From: Apophysomyces variabilis | Lineage: Eukaryota > Mucoromycota > Mucoromycetes > Mucorales > Mucoraceae | Assembly (NCBI GenBank): GCA_002749535.1 | Contig: MZZL01000403.1 | Coordinates: 892,209-956,208 of the forward strand | Direction: 5' to 3' | DNA: 64,000 nt | In this document: positions 4,889 to 36,304 of the stretch, piece after piece | How the letters are laid out: each line of letters begins with the position of its first letter | Position numbering within the stretch: position 1 is the first letter of the stretch | The notes under the pieces: generated by a model | Told to the model about the DNA's origin: nothing | What the model saw: only the letters and a program-made list of their open reading frames with translations | The model's database searches: none | Made by a program: the position numbers and the translations under genes

Positions 4889-7800
4889 CTTACCCGTGTT
4901 CCCTATACCCTTATACAATCTACCTTCTACTATTGCAAAGAACTCATAAAATTAATGGGTAAAAAGGATTTAGCCGAATTAATGAGTCTTAAATCAAGTA
5001 TGTTTTGTTTTAAAAATATACAATGTTGATAGGACAGGCCTTCTCCTTTGATACACTTTTGAATTGGGAGAATAAACATTAGGCTTCTGACTAGGTTTGA
5101 CTATCGGCATTAAGCCTAGTATGTTAGCTACCAGATGGATTTCGATTTTGTGATGTCTTCTAAAGGACGACATATAAGATATTTCCATCGATTCCACACT
5201 CTCTTTGATTCAGTTCTTCTTATCATAGGAAGAAAGATACTGAAAAGGAAGACTGCAAGTTTACAGCTGGATGGACACTTGGGAAAAAAGAAGGGACAAT
5301 TCTGATTGTGCTGTTTTGTAACACGCTGTAAAATGGTTTCTCCGTAGTTGTGGATATCGAGATCTAATAATATAGAATACTAAAACCTTCGAGCTTAAAG
5401 CCCGAGGTCGTGAAACTGACAAGGGGCACACAAAGTGTATCGACAAAGTATTAATGTCGATGTCTATTTCCTTAAATATTGTCATAGGTTAGGTAAAGGT
5501 CTTATTGCTCTAGACTCTACAACCCCGGAAGAGCGGTAAGGACACCGACAAGCTCCTTTTTTCCAATAATTGCTGTAGAAGTACAGATATATTAATGGAC
5601 CAGAGGATAAGCATCCCGGCAAGAATTCACGACGTAATCCTGTTGCTCGACTCACATGGTCATATCATTGAATAGCAATCCCTGACACGCTTTTGTCTTC
5701 CCTGCATCCAGATAATCCGTGTTTAGTGCATCAAATCATAAAAGTCGCTACCTTTATTAAAGAAATAATAACTGTATGTTGCATGCCGTGCTTATCCCAA
5801 GTGATATTTTTGACTGTTTCCGGTGACAGCGCAATACAACAAGTGGCACGTATCCTAAATTACAAAGATCTGTCAGAAAGCAAACGGTTACAAACAGACA
5901 CGTGCGTTACACGGACACCAGAAAGCATATTACAAAATCTTAATGTGGACAGGCTGTTGCATTTTAGGAAGTGCTATTTGTGCTGGTAAAACAGAACGAA
6001 TAAAATAAGGATAGAAAGAAAGGCTTTATTTCTTGTTCGCCATTTAGGATAGCAACGCTGCTCGTTATAAAATTATCGTGACTGTAAGAAGTAGATGCAA
6101 CGTGTTCGTTTTACTTTATCCCTTTGTTGCTAACCAACAAGACAGGTGACTGTAAAGATTAGAGAAAAAAAATAAAATAAAAAAATTATTTGGGTAGAGC
6201 AACTCCTTCTGGTTGCTTTCGGTTTTCCGGATGATCGTATAGCAACAATCGTATGGCAGAACACCGAAATTCAGCCTACATCAGCTGTTAAAGACGTACA
6301 TCAAGTACTGTATCGTGCATTTTCTTCCAGGGTGTTATGTATATGCTTATGAGCAATGAAACACGCATGGTAACGTTTTTTCATTGATTCGTCAGCATGG
6401 TATTGAAATGTGACACTATTGCTGGATCAAAGTAGATGTCTTCAGAAGATATATCAGTCAGCATTGGCTAAGTGCATTAATCCGCAGTGTTTCAGATTTT
6501 GAATAGCTTCCATCCAGTTTGGCTTGGTGGCAGACAACTTAAATCAAATTATAGATCTTTAGGGAGAAATTCTGCTCGAAGAATTGGCCCAGGTGAAACT
6601 ATCATCAGCTCAAGCATCTTGATAGCAGGGACCGCCATGGATCACAAGCGAAGCACGACAGCAACGGCCAAGTACATCCGATCCCGGGCAATCTGTGGAT
6701 CGTGTTAGACGTCCGTGTCCTTGTAGCTTTCGCTTGTACCTCATCCTTTAGCTCTGTTCACTTGTGCTTATTAAGCTTTAGCTTTTCTCAGCAAAGTAGA
6801 CAATAGAAGGGAGTGTTTTTGTTCTAGGTTTGGTGCAAGACGTGCCAAACACAAAAATTATTATCAAACGTGATCAAGTTCCTCGATATGCTCCGCGGTC
6901 TCGGTCCACAGGTATATTCGGCTTAAAGGAAGAATATAACCTTTCTCGCGCCCTATTCCTATCATTGTTGCTAATAGCTGTCCCAATCTTAATTCAGTTA
7001 TGGGAAATGGTTATGAACGGGCTGTATTTTATTCGATGAAAAGTAGATTGAACCGATGGTAAAATGTCTGTATGCTTATGACGAAGTTGAATATTCTTCA
7101 GCTTGTTCTCCCATAAACGACGTTGTTGCTTTCGTAAACCCTTTAATTCCTATCGGATGATTGTTAGTTATCGTTGTTGATAGCCTACGTGGTCTACTGG
7201 TATCACGAGCAATCAAGAGATGACAGCAATTAGTCAAGCTTGAAAGAAAAGAGAGTGAAAATAGTTTTTATGCATGGTTTTCTATTTCTGTTTACTATCA
7301 GTATCATGGTTATTCGATGTAATAGTTTCAACTGACACCTTGAATCGCCTGACTTATAGTATCCGGAAAAAAGATAGGAACTAGTCGATCTTGCATGCAA
7401 CGACAAGATGGAGACGGGGAAAACCTTTGTCCACTTATTTTGATGAGTGCTATTGTACTTAAAAAATGTTTATACTCATTAAGGAATACAGCATACGTGC
7501 TACAAGATCCATTTCCATCCTTTTTCTCAACACGTTTAGTTGATATAGTATACCTATTGAAAAGAATAAGTCGCGATTGCCAGCAATAGGCGGTTAGGGC
7601 CGAGCCAAGACTACGACATGCACATAAATAGCAATATAAACGTAGGAGTGCCCTAAGATTAATATAACTATGCAACCGCGGAAACTATCCAAAAACATCA
7701 CAAGGTTTACCTCAAGCGACTTGATTTGAACTAGGTCATTTCATCAAAAGCGATGTTTGATACCTTACAAAACAAGACCATATCCGATCCGATAACAAAC

Positions 7801-28057: not shown

Positions 28058-29393
28058 TCATTTGTTGCCGATCCATCGCGGTGGTTGCATCTCTATAAAA
28101 GGAATGGACCCATTCTCACCACCACCGTTTCTTTTCGAATTATTAAGTATCGTCCTAAGCTTTCTCAGGAGCGGGTACCAAAGGTATTGCTGTCCGTATT
28201 GTAGGTACGCAAATCCAATACCTACACCGGCAAGATGTGCCTGAATATGCCCGATTTAGGCAACCATATGCAGAAAAGCAATATAACTTACATAGTGGTC
28301 AAATATGCGCCAGCGCAATAAGATCCCCATGAGATCAAACCCCACTAATGCTTGTACGGCGGTTCTAAATACCGTAGAGTATATCAGAAATCCTTCTACA
28401 TCACCTCTCTAACCCCGCTCCACACTTCTTTTTGTTTTCCTTTTTTTTGGGCTTAGTTTACCCTATCTGGATCGGTATAAAAGGAAGAAACACGATAGAT
28501 ACGCTTGCTGTGGGATACAGTGCTGCAGTCCCCGCCAGACAGCCATAGATGGCGCCACTGGCCCCGAGGGATGGCATCAGTGGCCGATAAGCGCGAGTCA
28601 GCAGGCTCATGACATGGCTGACCACGTTAGCGCCCACCCCTGCCGACAGATACAATGCCAGAAATTGTTCTCGGCCTAGAAAATCATGAAGGGTCTTTCC
28701 GAAGGACCACAGACCGACCATATTGAGGGTAAGATGAAAGAATTCCTGATGGGAGAAGCAGCTCGTCAGCAATGTCACTGAGCGACCTGAACCTGGATGA
28801 TGCAAAAACCAGCGATTCATAAACGGCCTCCATCGTCTGATCTGCCAGCAACCAAAGACCACCATATTTAGCGCAATAAGACCCGTCATCGTCCGTTCAG
28901 CCTCTGTCAAGGCGACGTACTTTTGTGCAAGCATGTATAACCCTCGCTTGACTTCAACAGGTAGGAGTCTAAAGGTATCAAGTGCATTTACATATCGTTG
29001 CCATCTAGCTATCAATGCACGTTTCTTTTCCAAGAAGAATTCCCGCTGTTCTCGCAAAAGCTCTGCTTGTAATATGTCCGTATCATGAATGAAACTTCTT
29101 GTACGTTGGCGTACTCGCGCCATACGTTGTCGAAGTTTATCCTGGTTTCGTACGTATATGCTGCCGGCAGCCACGAAAGCAGAGCCACTCACGGTCAGTC
29201 CAAAAAGTACAGGGACAAGGTATCTCGCTTTTAGGTGCCCATGGTCTTCCTTATGCACTGGTGACCAAGCATGTTTCACAGAAGAAGAATGAAACGGAAA
29301 TGTGGGAACGCAAGAGGTATGAAACTTGGGAACAATGAGTCGACGAAGGAAGGGCAGATTGCAATGAGGACGTAAATGGAAGGAACGGAACAT
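28058..29393 (-). CDS. PCP1: Mitochondrial rhomboid protease (PARL/Pcp1)
   Basis: Three exons (28462-29393, 28292-28364, 28058-28240) give 395 residues. The N-terminus is basic and hydroxyl-rich (MFRSFHLRPHCNLPFLRRL), consistent with a mitochondrial presequence, and a first membrane helix follows near residues 60-85. The rhomboid core shows FFHLTLNMVGLWSFG (HxxxN in the second core helix). The catalytic serine is in GASGAIYG. In exon 3 the catalytic histidine is in AHLAGVGIG. This Ser-His dyad in an intramembrane protease processes inner-membrane proteins such as the dynamin Mgm1 in yeast. The frame is open upstream of the chosen ATG without another ATG. Confidence 0.92.
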
Positions 29394-29652
29394 GATGCAG
29401 TGCCAAAGAACAAAAAACTTCCTGCAACCATTCACTTAGGATGAACCGGGTGCAGGTGACTTGTATCTTCGGATTCTGCAGGGAACGGACCTCTGTGCTG
29501 GCCAAACTCAATTCCGGTTCCCATTCACATGCTCATTTTTTTGCATGACAGGGCCAAAGGTGCTTTTCCCGCAAAGAACTTGTATGGTACACATAACTAT
29601 CGCTTCATACCCAAAGAAGCTAAAACAAACACCGTTCGCTTTCCGTTCTATT

Positions 29653-30849
29653 TTATTTACCAAACACTTTGCCCAATACATTCTTCATACTACTATCCAT
29701 TCGTGATAAAACTTCCTTGCCAGACTTCTGGTCAGGAGCCACTTCACGAGCAACAGTCGCACGCTGTTTGAATGTTCGTCGGATATCATCCTCCTGCACT
29801 TCCTCACCCCTCTTACGCTTCTTGTCCTCCATGCCCTTAATCATCTTGGAACGCTCAATATTTTGTATGAAAGTCTTATTCTCTCGTTGTGATTGCGCAA
29901 CCTCGTTTCGAAGTCGATGCTGACGTGCTTGTTGTTCGTACGCTAATTCAAATGGGTTAGTCATATTGTCCTCTTCGACCTGCTATAACCTTACCCATTT
30001 GCTCTGTTAGATGATTCCATTTAAACTTGGGTAAATACTTAATATTCCACATGTCATGATAATATCGATCGCTTCGCTTCCCACCTTCAGTTCGGTTGAG
30101 TCAATCAAATTAGTGAATAAATTAGTGAGCAAACAAGACCAGAGATCTTACCAATCTGTCTCATATTCAAGTATTGGGCTAGTGCCTTGGCTTGCTTCTT
30201 GTCTTTGAACTCAACCCAACCTTCCGTATAATTCACACGTCTATCCTTGCCATATTTTTTCCGCCGAGCCGTAATTTTTGGATCTTTCCATTGCGATTCA
30301 GTAACCCGACATATGCGCAAAGCTATCTTTACCTTCTGGTGTACAATAGATGCGTCCAATCTCGGCGTATTTACTGAGCAGTGATCGTAAGCGACGCGGT
30401 TTCATAAATGGAGGGATTCTAGATAGATAGCAAACACCTGTCTTTCTCTGTTCTTTTTCGAATTTTTCAAGTTCTTCCGGCGTTAACTTTTTCAATTTCT
30501 TCTTTTTGCCGGTCTGTGATTTCTTTTTCTCAACAGCTGGCTCTTCCTCAACAGATCGACTATCCGTTTCCTCTTCGTCTTCCTTTTCTTGTTCTTCTTC
30601 CCCAGACTCGGCGAGTTCTTTGCTTTCTTCGTCCTCATTTTCTATGCCCCCTTCCTCTTCCTCTTCCTCGTCGTTTTCAGATTCCGAATCTTCAGATTGC
30701 GAGTCCTCACTTGCTGTTTTCTTTGAGCGAGAACGAAAAGTGGTAAATCGTCGATCTTCCTCTTCCTCCTCTTCATGGGAAGAATCATGATCGCTTTCTT
30801 CTTCTTTAAATCCAAACAGATCTTTTTTCTCTTCCTCGTCGATCGCCAT
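29653..30849 (-). CDS. ESF2: Pre-rRNA processing factor Esf2/ABT1
   Basis: Four exons (30333-30849, 30152-30283, 29995-30084, 29653-29942) give 342 residues. The first 110 residues are an acidic, Glu/Ser-rich low-complexity tail typical of nucleolar proteins. The RRM begins TGVCYLSRIPPFMKP and carries the family hallmarks RIYCTPEDPK, YTEGWVEFKDKKQAK and YYHDMWNIKYLPKFKW. The end is a basic coiled coil (RLRNEVAQSQRENKTFIQNI). Esf2 acts with helicase Dbp8 in the small-subunit processome. The last intron is 52 nt with an ideal TGACTAAC branch site; its acceptor was picked because TEQM then continues AYEQQARQ as in homologues. A gene for the processome helicase Dhr1 lies 10 kb away. Confidence 0.93.
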
Positions 30850-31189
30850 TGATCAAAAACTGTATAAACTTTTTTTCACTCCGGCGCCAGCTTCTATCAA
30901 GTGTGACGCCCTACTCTCTTTTAACTACCTTCACAGTATATTTTAACTCAGCAGTACTATGAATTATCCATCTATCTGAATAAAGGAACAACAGCCTTAA
31001 CCTCAAATATCTCACTTGTGCTTTGTAAACCATTTAACAATATCCCTACGAAACCCTTTACCTGTGGCCAATATTATTACTCAAGAGTATATCGAATATT
31101 AGTAGAGGATTCAATTCAAAAACTGCTAAAAGAATCACGTCACATGTTGCAAGGAGAAAATGACAGTCACTTTCGCCTTTCGACTCGTA
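30850..31189. other. Upstream region of ESF2 up to the edge of the bacterial-like island
   Basis: This AT-rich fungal-type DNA contains the ESF2 promoter. Base composition changes abruptly to GC-rich around 31190-31200. Confidence 0.45.
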
Positions 31190-31283
31190 AAGTCCGATGA
31201 AGCGCTTTGCATGCATTTGGATGCCGCCGGTGACATTGTGTGCAATCCGGTCATCGGCAGCATCGCAGCTGTCGCGGGCTGAA

Positions 31284-32687
31284 TTACTGTGTCTGATAAT
31301 TGCGGAACCAACAATAATTTCGAGCGTTCAGCATCCCGTTGCGAGTTGGCTTGTCGAACAGGTTACGCCCAAAAAAGGTCTTGATTTCAGTTTTTGCGGC
31401 TTCCCATTGCCGATTATTTAGTTTAAGTCCAATCCGTAAGTGAATATCGTAGAACGCTTCCGCTATGCCGGGGCCATTGCTGCCATCGAGCAGGCGCATC
31501 GCGCGCTGCCATACCTGTTTTAACAGTGCATCGTTCAATCGCGATGTTTCTTCGAGCAGTCCAAGCGCCGCTAATTCGCGCTGCGCAGGCGGCACACGCT
31601 CAAGGGCGGATTCGAGCAGCGAAATTTCATGTGCATGTTGATCTGCCGGTACCACCCGCAATAAAGCGCCCGGCAGGTAGCGTAACGCGCTGCCTAATTG
31701 ATGATCCGGCAGTGACAGCGTCAAGTGCCGCAGATAAGCGAGATACACTGGCCTTTGTGCCTCTGGCAGCATCGATACTCGATCGGCTAGTGCGCCGATC
31801 GGCGCGCCTCGAAGCGACGCTGGCAGGCGTTGCACCCATTCGAACAGTGCTTTGTACAATTCAATGCTCGTCGCGCTTGCAAGATCATAACGATAAGCAG
31901 AATAATGAAAAGAGGGGAAAGATAATGAAAACGCGCCTAGCACTTCGGCTAATGCCGTTATCAGTTCGGCCTGTCCAGACGCGTCCATGGCAGGAATCCG
32001 GCTTAAAAGAGCCCGATATTCGCTTTCAATCTGCGGTGCGTCAAGCCACAAGTTTGACGGCGGTGTGCGGCCGTAGATTGGTAGCATCGATGCGACGGCG
32101 CCCCAGGTGCTGCCCTGCTCAGGGGAGCGTCGTTCGGCGTCTGCATACACGAACCTATACAGATTGCGCTGGTACTGGATTGGAATCCCCCGTATGCTCC
32201 CGATCATGTATTTTTGTACCTGCAAGCCTTGCTTTGGCACACGGCCCGCGGCTTGAAAGATCGCTATGAATACCTCGGGCTTCACTTTGTACTGCCTTTT
32301 TGCCCGTTGCCACAGCGCCTGAAGCAATCCAGCGCGCAGGGAGTCGGTGCCAATACGCTCAATTTCGGTCAACAATTGTTGTACCGACGTGCGATCCAGC
32401 GCACCAGAATGGGAAATGCGTTCGCGACAAAGCCAACTCAGCCGCGTTTCTTGCAGCGCGTGATAGGTCTGCCTGTCCGCACTCGAAAAGTTACCGATGT
32501 CTTCAAACGGCATGTGGTTAGCCACCTGCTGGAGGATTTCGGGCGGCAAATTATAGTACGTCGTCGAGCGGCTCGTCGAGTCGTTCGCCTGGTACATCTG
32601 CCGCACGGGTGCACACCCAGGCTCCACTAGGCTTGGGAAATCAGGCGGGGCAGCAGCCGCAGAGAGACTGGCTTGCTGGTTCTCCAT
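31284..32687 (-). CDS. Bacterial-type F-box protein, putative secreted effector
   Basis: One uninterrupted frame of 467 residues starts at an ATG and has no introns. Residues 1-42 are Ala/Ser/Pro-rich and unstructured, as is common in type III effector N-termini. Residues about 43-90 form an F-box: YYNLPPEILQQVANHMPFED followed by L-x-x-R-x-S-W-L-C-R. The remaining 370 residues are predicted helical, with repeated LP-x-x-LR and 'ALxxRVxxLPxxQR' elements suggesting a solenoid that could bind a target. F-box proteins recruit Skp1/Cullin1 ubiquitin ligases, which exist only in eukaryotes, so a bacterial version normally acts inside a host. Codon use is strongly GC-biased, unlike fungal neighbours. 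The frame is intact while adjacent bacterial genes are broken. It could be expressed by the fungus only if a local promoter exists; none is evident. Confidence 0.75.
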   Translation of the reverse strand: MENQQASLSAAAAPPDFPSLVEPGCAPVRQMYQANDSTSRSTTYYNLPPEILQQVANHMPFEDIGNFSSADRQTYHALQETRLSWLCRERISHSGALDRTSVQQLLTEIERIGTDSLRAGLLQALWQRAKRQYKVKPEVFIAIFQAAGRVPKQGLQVQKYMIGSIRGIPIQYQRNLYRFVYADAERRSPEQGSTWGAVASMLPIYGRTPPSNLWLDAPQIESEYRALLSRIPAMDASGQAELITALAEVLGAFSLSFPSFHYSAYRYDLASATSIELYKALFEWVQRLPASLRGAPIGALADRVSMLPEAQRPVYLAYLRHLTLSLPDHQLGSALRYLPGALLRVVPADQHAHEISLLESALERVPPAQRELAALGLLEETSRLNDALLKQVWQRAMRLLDGSNGPGIAEAFYDIHLRIGLKLNNRQWEAAKTEIKTFFGRNLFDKPTRNGMLNARNYCWFRNYQTQ

Positions 32688-32984
32688 GGCGTATAGGCCA
32701 CTTGGGCGCTGTGGGCGGCGGGGTTCGAATCAAAGTCCATTGTCAAGTATGCTAAAAGGGGAGATGTGACTGCTGGCCTCTTCGGCGCACCAGCGTATTC
32801 ATAACCGGAGCACTGGCACCTCGGTTCCACGGACCGAAGGATATTATTTCGGGGCCTAAACAACCGTCCATACCGGAATTTTCTCTTATACCGATCTAAA
32901 GCGTGTGGGTCAACCTAACGGTAAGCAACGATCGCTAAGTTTTTAGCGGATAATGCAATGCTGACAATGCCAAGATAATCCAGC

Positions 32985-33263
32985 TCACTTCAATTGCGCG
33001 CATCCTTCCGTCTGCGGTCGCACCGGGCACATGTAGCCTTGGAGCGCGCGAAGCTTGTCTATATGTCGCTGATCGTCAGCAGCGACCCCGAAAACGCGTG
33101 CCGCAACCGCTGCGTAGGCGGTGGTTCCATTGTCCACGCGGGTGGTGCCGGTAACGCTGGACATGTCATCGGGACCGCCTGAACAGTTGGCCACGCGCAG
33201 CCGCTTTATTTGAACCGTCACGCACGCCGATACGCCAGTTTGCGTTTTTGAGTAAACTGGCAC
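32985..33263 (-). CDS. Phage-type hypothetical protein, possible Rz/lysis-like fragment
   Basis: A frame of 92 codons has bacterial codon use. Its C-terminal half (TAYAAVAARVFGVAADDQRH followed by IDKLRALQGY) is an amphipathic helix like those ending phage Rz/LysB spanins, and the position next to a DUF2514-like relic fits a lysis region. The match is weak and based on pattern only. In-frame similarity seems to continue upstream of the first Met beyond a stop at about 33300, so the gene may be truncated. Confidence 0.35.
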   Translation of the reverse strand: MPVYSKTQTGVSACVTVQIKRLRVANCSGGPDDMSSVTGTTRVDNGTTAYAAVAARVFGVAADDQRHIDKLRALQGYMCPVRPQTEGCAQLK

Positions 33264-33361
33264 TTTCTGTAATTCGCCGTTAGAATTACCCGTTCAAGTC
33301 ACTGAATTCCGGGCCAATACATCGACGCCCTTCTCGATCTAGATGAGGAGGCTATAGCGGC

Positions 33362-33749
33362 CTAGTCTCCCCTCATCCGCCTTAACGCGTCGTAATTGCG
33401 TTTGGACTGCTGTCCGGCAATGCGGGCCACGTCAACATGCGCCGCCTGTTCTCCTGCTCGCTCGTCCAGTTGCCTGAACACGTCGGCAAGCAAATCAAGG
33501 GCATCGCAGGTTACCGTGCTTCCGGAGGCAGCGGTGGGATAGCGGGAACGCTTGATAAGCGCGGCGGTTTGCTTGCGCAAACTGTCAGCAACACAAGCAG
33601 CGGCAACAGAATCGGCCCGCGCCCGGACCCGTTCTTTCTTCGCATTTTCAGTGATCTCCTATTGCGGCTTGCAGAGCGGCGTTCTGGGCTTGCGCGGCGG
33701 TGGCTGCCGTGAGCGCCCAGAAGGTTGGGATTCGCATGGTTGATGTCAT
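33362..33749 (-). pseudogene. Phage lysis protein relic (DUF2514/i-spanin-like)
   Basis: The start region at 33749 reads MTSTMRIPTFWALTAATAAQ, an N-terminal hydrophobic helix as in inner-membrane spanins, but runs into a stop after 33 codons. A second frame, shifted relative to the first, then continues ENAKKERVRARADSVAAACV and ends with LLADVFRQLDERAGEQAAHV and an AGQQSKRNYDALR tail. That ending is the conserved C-terminus of DUF2514 proteins of Burkholderia phages. The frame change makes it a pseudogene unless it is a sequencing error. It marks the neighbourhood as prophage-derived. Confidence 0.6.
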
Positions 33750-34937
33750 ATTTGACATAACATAAGTATCATACATACTTCTTCCACTAAGTCTAAACGA
33801 TCTTTATATGAGTTTATCATACCATCGGCACTACATCCACAGATAAGAACCTGCATCAGCCAGACATCTACTTAAGGATTATTATAATCTGAGATACTAG
33901 GACACTCTGCTATGATCTTAAGGTACCCCGGCATATCCTATCTCATGATTGTGCGACAAGACAATTACGATGACGACGATCTTAGCAATAGACACAGTGA
34001 TTAATAAGCGTCCCTGATTCATGCATTAGATGACCGCTATTCAGACTCAGCTATATGACAGCTTCTCTGACAAAAGATGAATAATCATTCATTGTCATCA
34101 ATCTACCATGAACAGTCAGTGCTTACGCATCTTCTGATTACTAAGACATTTAACTAAGCATGCAAAGGGTATAAATACTGCTGGTAGACAATTGTAATCA
34201 AGACATCCATTGACTTTTGAATAAACCTCCGCCAAGAGTCTCAAAGTATTTACTGCCGTTTTCTCTTACTAATTCTTCAGTTGAAACTACAGATAAAAAT
34301 TAGCTTGTTGCCGATAGCTTGAGTAGAGCAACAGCATGGAACGCAACCAATCGGACGCTTTAGCGCCGAGCAAATCGAGCAGGCCGCGCAAGCTCAGGGT
34401 CAGTGTGCTATACGTCGCTGTTGTAGTGTGACTTCCTAGTACTTGTGTTCCATGAACAGGATGATAGGAATTTACGTGTTTCCATTTACAGTGAACTTCT
34501 CTAGTTTGAAACACGACTGCACCTCTTCTCTAAATCAGAGATATATCACCGAGGACGAAGACAAGGTGACACTGCTCTACCGCAGTTATTATACTTAGCT
34601 TAATCATACACCTAGCGCCGAGAAAAACGTTCACTAATTACAAATCCCACATAAGAGCAAATAATTATGAATAGGCAGACAAGCTGAACGAAATAAAGAT
34701 ATCCAGCAGTCTCAAAGGATTCTATCCATCTCTTTTGATATACATATAACGCAGTCAGTTTTTCCCTGACATAAAGGGGCGACCGAAAGTGCCTCCGTCG
34801 GCAATCGAGGGACACAAGCCGGTCGCGCAAGAAGCGCCACTCTCCATCGGACGCCTATCGAGATTTACTGAATCCATGACAACCGGTTCTTTGCTGACGC
34901 TTTATAGGGGTATCACCCTGAAGGGAGACTCGGTTAA
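33750..34937. other. AT-rich spacer within the island, with short GC-rich insertions
   Basis: The block 33750-34330 is AT-rich yet almost free of homopolymer runs longer than four, unlike the fungal intergenic DNA elsewhere in the window, which is full of poly-T and poly-A. A GC-rich snippet at 34330-34415 reads on the minus strand LTLSLRGLLDLLGAKASDWL, which looks bacterial but is unassigned. Another GC-rich stretch at 34765-34870 has an open plus frame without recognised similarity. Confidence 0.4.
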
Positions 34938-35545
34938 TGGCCAAGATGGATGAAGCTACGTGCAAGCGATTGTGTGCCAGTCGCTTGATGTTGGTGGGCA
35001 CGACGCCGACCTAGGCTGCCAAAGCAGTCAGAGTGGCATGGCAAACTGCATACACATGGAAAGCCTGAGTCGAAGAAGGCGACATCGACGCGCTGCGCGT
35101 GATGGCCATGGGACGGCCGGTGCAGTTGGATGTGACCCAACTCGAAGGTTTACGCATAGCTCTGCTGCAAGGCCCGCTGGCATACGGCTTCAATACCAAA
35201 CTGTGGACGCTCAAGCGCGCACGGGCGCTCATCGAGCGGCTGTACGGCGTTACCTTCAGCGAGGTACATATTTGGCAGCTGCTCAGTGCACAGTGCTTCA
35301 GCTCGCAAAAGCCCGAGTGCCGAGCCATCGAGCGCAACGAGGAGGCGGTATTGGCCTAAAAGCGCAAAACTTGGCCGCGCTCAAAAAAGTGTGTCGTCGA
35401 ACAACGACTGATTGTCTTCATCGACGAATCAGGCTTCTCCGAGTGCCCGACGCGGGTGCGGACCTGGGCGCTCAAGAGCTGCACACCGATCATTCAGTAT
35501 CACCTCAATTGGAATGGATTCGGACAGAAAAGTATTCTATAATAA
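34938..35545 (+). pseudogene. Truncated IS630-family transposase (bacterial type)
   Basis: Reading the plus strand from MAKMDEATCKRLCASRLMLV gives the N-terminal helix-turn-helix region with two in-frame stops. Then comes MGRPVQLDVTQLEGLRIALL and LWTLKRARALIERLYGV (winged-helix segment), another stop, and CVVEQRLIVFIDESGFSECP, where the Asp is the first residue of the DDE triad. The frame ends in AT-rich sequence after IIQYHLNWNGFGQ; the two remaining catalytic residues are absent. IS630 elements of this type are frequent in Burkholderiaceae. At least three stops plus 3' truncation show it is dead. Confidence 0.75.
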
Positions 35546-36304
35546 TAGCTGCTTAGCTGACGATGTTTCCCATATCAATAGTATTGATTAAATGAATACC
35601 TACTACCTTGGAAAAAAAATAGACACATGCCTTGTCGGAAGAGAGGCATCCTTGCTAAGAAACTTGATGTTAATCGTTTATTATCATTTTTCTGATTATT
35701 GTCAATGCCGGCACCTAAATCAGCGTTGCTAGCGCTGCTTAGGTCCTGACAAACAAGCTTTGTCTGTGCGTCAAATGTTACTGTTCAAAACAACTCCTCC
35801 CAAAAATAGAAAGACAATGTCATCGTGTGTGCTGCATGTGCCCTTACTGTGTGACAAAAATCAGTACACTTCTTATTGTCTAGATGAATAGTGTTCAGCC
35901 ACATATTTTAGATATTACAAACGATTTTTTAAAGACACAACGAAAGGATAAGGTGTGTATCGCATTCGTGCACTGAGGCAGGCTGTTTAAGCGTCCCATG
36001 CATGGCCTCAATAAGCCCTCCTTGAAGAAGAGTCATGTTAAGTGTAGAGTCACTCAACAACCATGAAAAATCGATTACGGTAAGAATGATGGCTATAAAA
36101 TACGCATGCCTATTTTACAAAAATTATAACTATCTTAATCTCCATTATCTTGCACGACGGCCGTAAACGGAATATGTGGAAATTAGATAAATAAATAAGA
36201 GTGAAGGGGAAATATCACGAATGCTCCGCCTTCTTATTTTATAAGACGATGTGGACTTCGGTAAGATTTCCTTAATAAAAAAAAACAACAGCTTGGTTGC
36301 CATG
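35546..36304. other. Right flank of the island to NAB3
   Basis: No gene supported. The stretch contains a hairpin-forming sequence at 35714-35743 and otherwise AT-rich DNA that includes the 3' flank of the NAB3-like gene. Confidence 0.4.
35714..35743. repeat. Imperfect inverted repeat (hairpin)
   Basis: The arms CCTAA / TTAGG and CAGCG / CGCTG pair in register with small bulges around a 7-nt loop. It lies just beyond the end of the IS630 relic and is locally GC-rich, so it may be a bacterial terminator or transposon-end fragment. Confidence 0.4.

Follow-up and report, generated by a model that had tools for sequence, protein, structure and literature searches.

The transfer of DNA from an endosymbiont into its host is a known kind of event. 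The Wolbachia-to-animal nuclear transfers (PMC3798261, PMC3849323) resemble the locus described here in that endosymbiont DNA lies in a host nuclear genome; they differ in that the present host is a fungus, the donor is a betaproteobacterial endosymbiont of the Mycetohabitans kind, and one small insert was found in the searches made. In Mortierellomycota, xenologs from Burkholderia-related endobacteria have been reported, for example, NOD-like receptors from Mycoavidus (PMC11291939), which likewise passed from an endohyphal Burkholderiaceae symbiont into a fungal host lineage. Whereas those receptors show approximately 45-50% protein identity (PMC11291939), the F-box gene described here is up to 87% identical to Mycetohabitans genes at the DNA level, and, unlike those xenologs, it lies in a DNA fragment with phage and insertion sequence (IS) neighbors that are still recognizable. 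The main text of PMC11291939 mentions neither Apophysomyces nor F-box.

F-box candidate type III effectors have been described in Mycetohabitans (PMC7482071, PMC10746252), and an F-box-like candidate was among the effectors overexpressed on fungal contact (PMC7482071). The likeness of these candidates to the present gene is one of genus and domain type, and the gene described here lies in a fungal chromosome. M. apophysomyceticola, which lives in Apophysomyces BC1015 and BC1034 (PMC13367373), could plausibly be the donor lineage where the host is an Apophysomyces; the main text of that paper contains neither the term F-box nor the term horizontal gene transfer. The transfer described here was not found in the open-access literature searched. 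Contamination is the standing objection to claimed transfers from endohyphal bacteria to fungi. Herein, we describe a fungal contig of at least 0.95 Mb, within an assembly of 38.7 Mb, that contains approximately 3.4 kb of bacterial DNA of the Mycetohabitans type. We read this insert, with a probability of roughly 0.88, as a fragment of a Mycetohabitans-type endosymbiont in the chromosome of an Apophysomyces-like host that was later hit by two host LTR retrotransposons.

Extent and Setting of the Insert

The window, the whole stretch of 64,000 nucleotides analyzed, corresponds to C89:892209-956208 of the assembly, with both insert flanks on one long contig. GC content in 60-bp windows was 0.32-0.35 up to 31169 and 0.53-0.57 across 31170-31289, with a second dip to 0.38-0.53 within 31260-31469. 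In 1-kb windows, it changed from 0.41 at 30001-31000 to 0.50-0.56 at 31001-34000, and outside the insert region it was 0.359-0.495. Both profiles bear out the first-pass annotation of this DNA, which had reported an abrupt switch to GC-rich sequence near 31190. The left edge falls somewhere from 31160 to 31238, the latter being the position at which homology to a Mycetohabitans chromosome begins. Bacterial homology stops at approximately 35514, about 240 bp short of the right end (35755) that had been proposed. An F-box gene, phage lysis relics, and an IS630 fragment had also been listed, and all three were recovered by homology. Along the minus strand, the IS630 relic comes first, broken and cut off where the right junction lies; the spanin genes, also broken, come next, and the F-box gene is last. 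The bacterial part comprises the following features.

31160..31237, no strand assigned: left junction zone, high in GC from approximately 31170, without bacterial match
31160-31279, plus strand: open frame in the left junction zone
31238..32795, minus strand: segment of 85% identity with the F-box gene and its flanks, contiguous with Mycetohabitans chromosome G005:C2:2694275-2695852
31284..32687, minus strand: F-box gene, a 467-codon open frame starting at an internal Met
32985..33263, minus strand: remnant of an Rz spanin tail (phrog_2466, 7.3e-12)
33362..33743, minus strand: second Rz-type spanin with a broken frame (DUF2514; domain matches on 33362-33580)
34285..34398, minus strand: bacterial sequence upstream of the spanin, matched in locus L065
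34759..34854, no strand assigned: stretch separating LTR 2 from the IS630 match, taken as bacterial from its position and composition only, with no match of its own
34855..35514, plus strand: IS630-family transposase relic (PF13592, 1.7e-13; annotated IS630 relatives)

The alignment to the Mycetohabitans chromosome showed 85% identity over 1584 columns, and the closest relatives were found in this genus, except for the IS630 part. The small frame at 31160-31279 had no tblastn match among 72,556 plasmid records. This frame, 34759-34854, and 34290-34403 gave no credible PHROG match (best E 0.15), and Rfam gave no match anywhere in the window.

To the left of the insert, a rhomboid gene was 79% identical over 96% to Apophysomyces sp. 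BC1034/BC1015, while its R. microsporus relatives reached 56% with 78% of the query aligned, or 68% with 46% aligned. The left flank is fungal, as had been claimed, and of Apophysomyces type. The Rhizopus setting assumed earlier did not hold: protein relatives of the host genes point to Apophysomyces instead, and Rhizopus was rejected as the host because the rhomboid gene is closer to Apophysomyces sp. than to R. microsporus. An A. ossiformis protein was 95% identical to a second gene elsewhere in the assembly, which makes A. ossiformis itself an improbable host. The right flank carries open frames without Pfam match and has a host-like composition.

Host Retrotransposons within the Bacterial DNA

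Two AT-rich blocks interrupt the bacterial DNA. These were identified as solo LTRs, each bounded by a target duplication.

33744..34279, plus strand: solo LTR 1, 536 bp, TG..CA, from a Ty3/gypsy-type chromodomain retrotransposon of the host
33739..33743 (left) and 34280..34284 (right), plus strand: target duplication GTTGA, a perfect 5 bp at the LTR 1 ends
34404..34753, plus strand: solo LTR 2, 350 bp, TG..CA, from another multicopy host element
34399..34403 (left) and 34754..34758 (right), plus strand: target duplication GTCAG, a perfect 5 bp at the LTR 2 ends

A perfect 5-bp duplication exactly at TG..CA ends is expected by chance approximately once in 1024 per LTR. Each LTR has at least 19 further copies in the assembly. 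LTR 1 differs at 2 of 536 positions from two LTRs lying 6.15 kb end to end on contig C71, and elsewhere in the assembly it is flanked by gag and by an integrase-chromodomain. Matching 5-bp duplications of their own were carried by 5 of the 16 other LTR 1 copies checked, these being the loci out of 19 that passed a filter for complete ends. The nearest copies of LTR 2 among the matches listed are 92-93% identical. Its private change of approximately 6.75% derives from rounded identities and may reflect an old subfamily.

Since host retrotransposons with target duplications lie inside the bacterial DNA, that DNA was already chromosomal when they landed. Decayed bacterial DNA as the nature of the AT-rich blocks was ruled out by the two host solo LTRs. 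The first-pass annotation had taken stop codons, truncation, and AT-rich interruptions as signs of age; the age reading gains from two later retrotransposon insertions, but the AT-rich interruptions are host LTRs and drop out as evidence of decay.

These insertions also bear on the idea of an assembly chimera or of contamination from a living symbiont. Sequence data from Apophysomyces have been reported to include Mycetohabitans (PMC13367373), so symbiont DNA could be in a library. Against this stand the LTRs of two host families within the bacterial sequence, each with its target duplication, the several broken genes, the flanks on one long contig, and the result for the bacterial DnaA family, which had no match in the assembly (control positive in 13 of 14 genomes). 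On the LTRs and the DnaA result, we rejected this explanation as very improbable.

Additional symbiont DNA was sought with the DNA of the insert, the F-box protein, 14.0 kb and 17.3 kb of Mycetohabitans DNA, and DnaA, and more may exist. The 14.0 kb and 17.3 kb of Mycetohabitans DNA matched the assembly at the insert only. The F-box protein search of the assembly recovered the gene of the insert and, apart from it, a single match at chance level (E 0.17, 28% identity, two stops). In the comparison of the DNA of the insert with the assembly, 40 of 170 candidates were scored, mostly host repeats, so that a further copy of the spanin or IS630 part may have escaped detection.

Spanin and IS630 Relics and the Probable Donor Neighborhood

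Neither spanin gene is intact. The second matched PF10721 (1.2e-10) and phrog_312 (9.8e-13), both on 33362-33580, and the spanin DNA matched spanin genes of Burkholderia phages (7 records from 5 phages). The IS630 relic contains three in-frame stops, its right part is missing at the junction (35514), and the element is incomplete in that not both ends are present. Its best matches were Paraburkholderia copies at 83% DNA identity. It was matched at E <= 1e-20 by 16 of 398 sampled genomes of the bacterial family, none of them from the Mycetohabitans set, and a search of 8 genomes of the genus Mycetohabitans gave no DNA match.

At three Mycetohabitans loci, each of the five F-box frames is preceded on its own strand by an Rz gene or Rz tail, with 175-230 bp from frame to frame. 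The window has the same order, spanin and then F-box, as these present-day loci. No spanin was found beside the closest F-box relatives at four of four Mycetohabitans loci within the flanks searched (L066, 4.2-4.3 kb; L005, 7.7-8.0 kb; L006, 7.4-8.0 kb; L003, 9.7/0.4 kb), so the spanin/F-box neighborhood is known only for more distant F-box copies. Both sides of LTR 1 match one stretch of L065 with the order kept; the matching parts are separated by 310 bp in L065 and, once LTR 1 is discounted, by 538 bp in the window. On the far side of this LTR, 34284-34385 aligns at 75% identity with the DNA immediately upstream of Rz in a genome from Mycetohabitans (L065:6150-6250).

The missing spanin beside the closest relatives and the Paraburkholderia affinity of the IS630 relic, together with its absence from the Mycetohabitans genome set, could be read as several bacterial fragments joined at the site, with the F-box, lysis, and IS630 pieces coming from different places or bacteria. 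Two kinds of continuity argue for one fragment instead. First, window 32898-32989 bridges the F-box and lysis pieces, since it matches DNA that lies upstream of an F-box gene in one locus (L006 9501-9556) and beside Rz in another (L067 4591-4491). Second, the GTCAG duplication indicates that both sides of LTR 2 were contiguous before its insertion. An IS in a symbiont prophage is, moreover, ordinary. We consider a composite origin rather improbable. The first-pass proposal of an endosymbiont (pro)phage piece in the host nucleus is supported by the Mycetohabitans relatives, the spanin/F-box neighborhood, the host LTRs, and the lack of a DnaA match in the assembly.

The insert most likely formed as follows. 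Approximately 3.4 kb from a prophage lysis locus with an F-box effector gene in a Mycetohabitans-type endosymbiont was ligated into a chromosome in an ancestor of this Apophysomyces-like fungus, probably during double-strand break repair; that a single fragment was involved is, like the repair route, inferred. LTR retrotransposons of two different host families later inserted into the bacterial DNA and shrank to solo LTRs, the 350-bp LTR probably earlier and the 536-bp chromodomain LTR recently.

The F-Box Gene and Selection on Its Frame

The first-pass annotation had invoked stop codons and truncation; in the F-box gene the frame is open for 467 codons. The start used by the bacterial relatives (approximately 32740) is out of frame in the fungal copy, which differs from them in its N-terminus and start codon. 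The F-box domain (PF00646) scored 17.8 bits (E 0.0032), below the curated cutoff of 20.5, and relatives of the frame named at NCBI carry the name F-box proteins. Protein identity to Mycetohabitans P0001 was 82% with 100% of the query covered, and Mycetohabitans accounted for 10 of the 16 plasmid records matched. In the predicted structure (mean pLDDT 82.2), residues 1-41 are disordered and the rest is all helices, forming a helical solenoid. A PDB structure search with this model gave 1291 matches at E <= 10 and one at E <= 0.001, namely, 9mg8_B 'b-iTHR-110' (TM 0.08), a designed helical repeat protein. The F-box family profile had no match among PDB sequences. The fold thus gave no pointer to the substrate of the protein.

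Thirteen loci carry an F-box frame, and six of these were aligned with the window copy. The remaining seven are L042, L039, L045, L046, L005, L006, and L003; in lengths and identities, L005 and L003 equal L037, and L006 equals L040. The codon model covered 431 codons in five sequences (window and four bacterial copies), leaving out two more distant copies, L041 and L044, of the seven sequences aligned.

Bacterial F-box effectors have been proposed to bind Skp1 and to bring about ubiquitination of host proteins. If the present gene is expressed, its product would be expected, by analogy, to bind Skp1 and to mark out proteins of the host for ubiquitination. The gene may have been domesticated, in which case the fungus would keep the effector gene and make the protein in its cytoplasm, with translation beginning at a codon that skips the bacterial N-terminal stretch. 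The 467 codons remain open beside the broken spanins and the IS630 relic with its three stops, but these neighbors may have been broken already in the bacterium. Indels inside the frame are net in-frame, while the approximately 105 bp upstream contain four indels, and neither LTR lies in the gene. On the fungal branch, omega was 0.43, and fixing omega = 1 there cost 4.75 lnL relative to a free omega. Most of this purifying selection probably acted in the bacterium, however; neutral change since the transfer fits best at 2%, with 0-5% allowed. Random substitutions cut both ways: 90 changes left the frame without a stop in just 2.65% of trials, whereas 30 changes did so in 28%. If the private change in LTR 2 is truly approximately 6.75%, an equal neutral change in the F-box gene is disfavored, at 3.8 lnL below the best value tested; but the LTR 2 divergence comes from rounded identities and an old subfamily may lie behind it. 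The ancestral start being out of frame also counts against domestication, as does the alteration of 6 of 105 positions conserved at >=90% in the window copy, compared to 1, 1, 1, 2, and 2 in P0001-P0005. More distant F-box copies alter up to 17 of 111 conserved positions, and P0006 alters 4 of 92.

Judged from the sequence, the mark of selection on the frame probably mostly predates the transfer, and the frame shows at most mild relaxation. The contrast between the apparent LTR 2 divergence of approximately 7% and the best-fit neutral change of 2% is a hint, not proof, of selection in the fungus. We regard domestication as unlikely. The fuller proposal is slightly more doubtful still; in it, the effector lost its bacterial start region but is maintained by selection in the nucleus, and the host would now make a protein the bacterium once used on the ubiquitin system. 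Most likely, the insert is a fossil of fairly recent date, left by a symbiosis either past or present, and its F-box gene has not yet decayed.

Conclusions

The insert bears on the contamination objection: its DNA can still be recognized, the donor locus has been identified as to kind, and the chromosomal residence of the bacterial DNA is shown by the target duplications around host retrotransposons. It is a layered fossil that records an association of Mycetohabitans type within an Apophysomyces-like lineage. It also raises a testable question, whether a host-directed effector gene may now be used by the host itself.

Composition and Bacterial Relatives of the Insert

The window lies at C89:892209-956208 of the host assembly (38.7 Mb, 126 contigs). 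GC content in 1-kb windows was 0.50-0.56 across 31001-34000 and 0.359-0.495 outside the block of Mycetohabitans-type DNA. In 60-bp windows, the left edge appeared as a step from 0.35 (31110-31169) to 0.53 (31170-31229). A 40-codon frame with raised GC at this junction (31160-31279, plus strand) gave no plasmid match and no credible PHROGs match. The block carries the following features:

31284-32687, minus strand, F-box gene, a 467-codon open frame
within the block, spanin remnant (Rz tail), phrog_2466 (7.3e-12)
within the block, second spanin remnant, phrog_312 (9.8e-13) and DUF2514 (1.2e-10)
within the block, IS630-type relic, HTH_33 (1.7e-13)
33744-34279, LTR 1, host solo LTR
34404-34753, LTR 2, host solo LTR

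The F-box frame matched PF00646 weakly, with an E of 0.0032 and a score of 17.8 bits that falls short of the 20.5 cut-off. Among the 32 relatives found for its protein, the best were from Mycetohabitans, and the top one showed 82% identity over the whole query. Block DNA matched 16 plasmid records, 10 of them Mycetohabitans, at identities up to 86.8%. Four of the eight genomes in the Mycetohabitans genus set matched the block; no match was found in G002, G003, G004, and G006 (each 1.1-1.2 Mb), possibly Vallotia-type symbionts of insects. The longest bacterial match (window 31238-32795) was to one Mycetohabitans chromosome, at 85% over 1584 columns; judging by its plasmid coordinates, this genome is probably M. 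rhizoxinica HKI 454. The lysis piece also resembled seven records from five Burkholderia phages at 68-76% identity.

The IS630 relic was 83% identical to Paraburkholderia copies. A sample of 398 genomes from the family included 16 with a match to it (E <= 1e-20), and there was no match in any of the eight Mycetohabitans-genus genomes searched. It contains three in-frame stops, but some of its breaks need not be losses, because the two halves of a Paraburkholderia relative (L007) likewise sit in different frames. In a tree, the window F-box joined two copies of the M. rhizoxinica type, at local supports of 0.92-0.97 and on a branch of 0.089. The bacterial origin of the block and the type of donor locus are established. 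The donor would be an unsampled Mycetohabitans lineage.

Host LTRs Inside the Bacterial DNA

Compared with its own genome, the block matched itself and two repeat families and nothing else among the 40 of 170 candidates scored. The LTR 1 family has at least 19 further loci and the LTR 2 family at least 19 further long copies, each plus fragments; both numbers are lower bounds because of the share of candidates scored. An LTR 2-family fragment was found at 39 further places in the genome. Both LTRs start with TG, end with CA, and are flanked by perfect 5-bp duplications, GTTGA for LTR 1 and GTCAG for LTR 2. Sixteen other LTR 1 copies with complete ends were checked for duplications, and five had their own matching pair and are solo LTRs. 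Nine of the other 11 have one of two recurring inner neighbours, either TTTTT following the copy or GGTAA preceding it, the pattern that the two LTRs of longer elements should show. The LTR 1 copies on contig C71 span 6.15 kb end to end, with gag adjoining one side and an integrase with a chromodomain the other. The LTR 1 element is a Ty3/gypsy-type chromodomain element.

Both sides of LTR 1 match the Mycetohabitans-genus locus L065 in the same order, 33016-33205 corresponding to 5633-5840 and 34284-34385 to 6150-6250. The two parts are 310 bp apart in L065 and 538 bp apart in the window minus LTR 1. Because LTRs with target duplications lie inside the bacterial DNA, host elements jumped into it when it was already chromosomal, which at the level of sequence establishes its chromosomal residence. 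Bacterial DnaA had no match in the host assembly, and the control gave a signal in 13 of 14 genomes.

LTR 1 differed from its nearest copies at 2 of 536 positions, and its insertion is therefore recent. For LTR 2, identity to the nearest copies among those listed was 92-93%, with private change in the window copy of about 6.75%, a three-point estimate from rounded identities that subfamily history could inflate. The order of events is established: the bacterial DNA came first and the LTRs later. At host locus L020, an older, interrupted LTR 2-family copy was 92-95% identical to 39 other places and 87-89% identical to the window copy. This copy (1356-2231, contig C120) is interrupted by a nested LTR 1-family copy, in the same apparent age order as in the bacterial block. 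The 64-kb window holds no further copy of either family, and both of its copies fall in the 3.4 kb of bacterial DNA.

Selection on the F-Box Gene

The F-box region differed from its chromosomal relative at 202 of 1552 aligned bases. Indels inside the frame preserve it on balance. The start codon of the relatives is out of frame here, owing to a one-base frameshift immediately upstream of the open frame. The frame has a GC content of 0.549 (bacterial copies, 0.533-0.565). Pairwise dN/dS was 0.22-0.40 between the window and bacterial copies and 0.20-0.41 among bacterial copies.

In a codon model of 431 codons in five sequences, the background omega was 0.316 and that of the fungal branch 0.43. 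Two omegas hardly improved on one (lnL -3466.88 vs -3467.43), and a fungal-branch omega of 1 fitted worse (-3471.63). With the branch split, the best tested neutral change since transfer was 2% per base (-3466.66); values from 0% (-3467.43) to 5% (-3468.11) were within 1.5 lnL of the best, and 6.75% (-3470.47) was 3.8 below it.

The window copy carries 38 unique substitutions, 24 of them amino-acid-changing, with 20 from G/C to A/T and 11 in the reverse direction. The amino-acid-changing share in six bacterial copies ranged from 3/11 to 7/10. At 105 positions conserved at >=90%, the window had 6 changes and the five nearest relatives 1-2 each. In our reading, the gene owes its pattern chiefly to selection while it was bacterial, followed by slight relaxation. 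Should LTR 2 have the age that its divergence suggests, an intact frame without selection would be unexpected; this is a hint of selection in the fungus and not a result.

Spanin and F-Box Neighbourhood

Eight Mycetohabitans loci were examined for the presence of both spanin and F-box genes, and three contained both:

L067, 3717-9701, Rz/F-box locus
L068, 3810-12762, Rz/F-box locus
L069, 5851-8164, Rz/F-box locus

Each of the five F-box frames in these loci follows either an Rz spanin gene or one of the repeated Rz tails, on the same strand and at a frame-to-frame distance of 175-230 bp. The Rz-tail copies within L067 are 74-90% identical. The F-box copies beside a spanin belong to the more distant relatives (290-300 bits), and a further locus, L065, carries Rz copies without an F-box. 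The loci of the closest F-box relatives (L066, L005, L006, and L003) had no spanin within the flanks examined, so this neighbourhood is a genuine trait of the genus but is not known to surround the orthologue. About 245 bp of the window separate the Rz-tail stop from the ancestral start of the F-box gene. Within this interval, 32898-32989 matches the F-box upstream region in L006 as well as the Rz neighbourhood in L067. Some of the F-box family seems to be multiplying at prophage lysis loci in units of Rz tail plus F-box.

Host Context and Implications

The left-flank rhomboid frame (28458-29435, minus strand) was 79% identical over 96% to an Apophysomyces sp. BC1034/BC1015 protein; the remaining matches among the 120 listed of 2038 reached at most 72% across shorter stretches. 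A second rhomboid protein, from A. ossiformis, was 95% identical to another place in the host assembly. The assembly also fits published Apophysomyces genomes, which measure 35.8-39.4 Mb at a GC content of 41.65-41.90% (PMC5604411). The host is therefore an Apophysomyces or closely related to that genus. None of the 32 F-box relatives was named as an Apophysomyces protein, though the database includes BC1034, BC1015, and A. ossiformis proteins.

Endosymbiont-to-host transfer is known, including from Mycoavidus to Mortierellomycota (PMC11291939), as are F-box-like candidate effectors of Mycetohabitans (PMC7482071) and Apophysomyces carrying Mycetohabitans (PMC13367373). The open-access literature searched yielded no description of an Apophysomyces chromosome that contains Mycetohabitans DNA. 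The bacterial DNA would have entered as one fragment via break repair, and any activity of the predicted F-box protein would run through Skp1. A chromodomain element may land in foreign DNA by preference, or simply because insertions there are tolerated.
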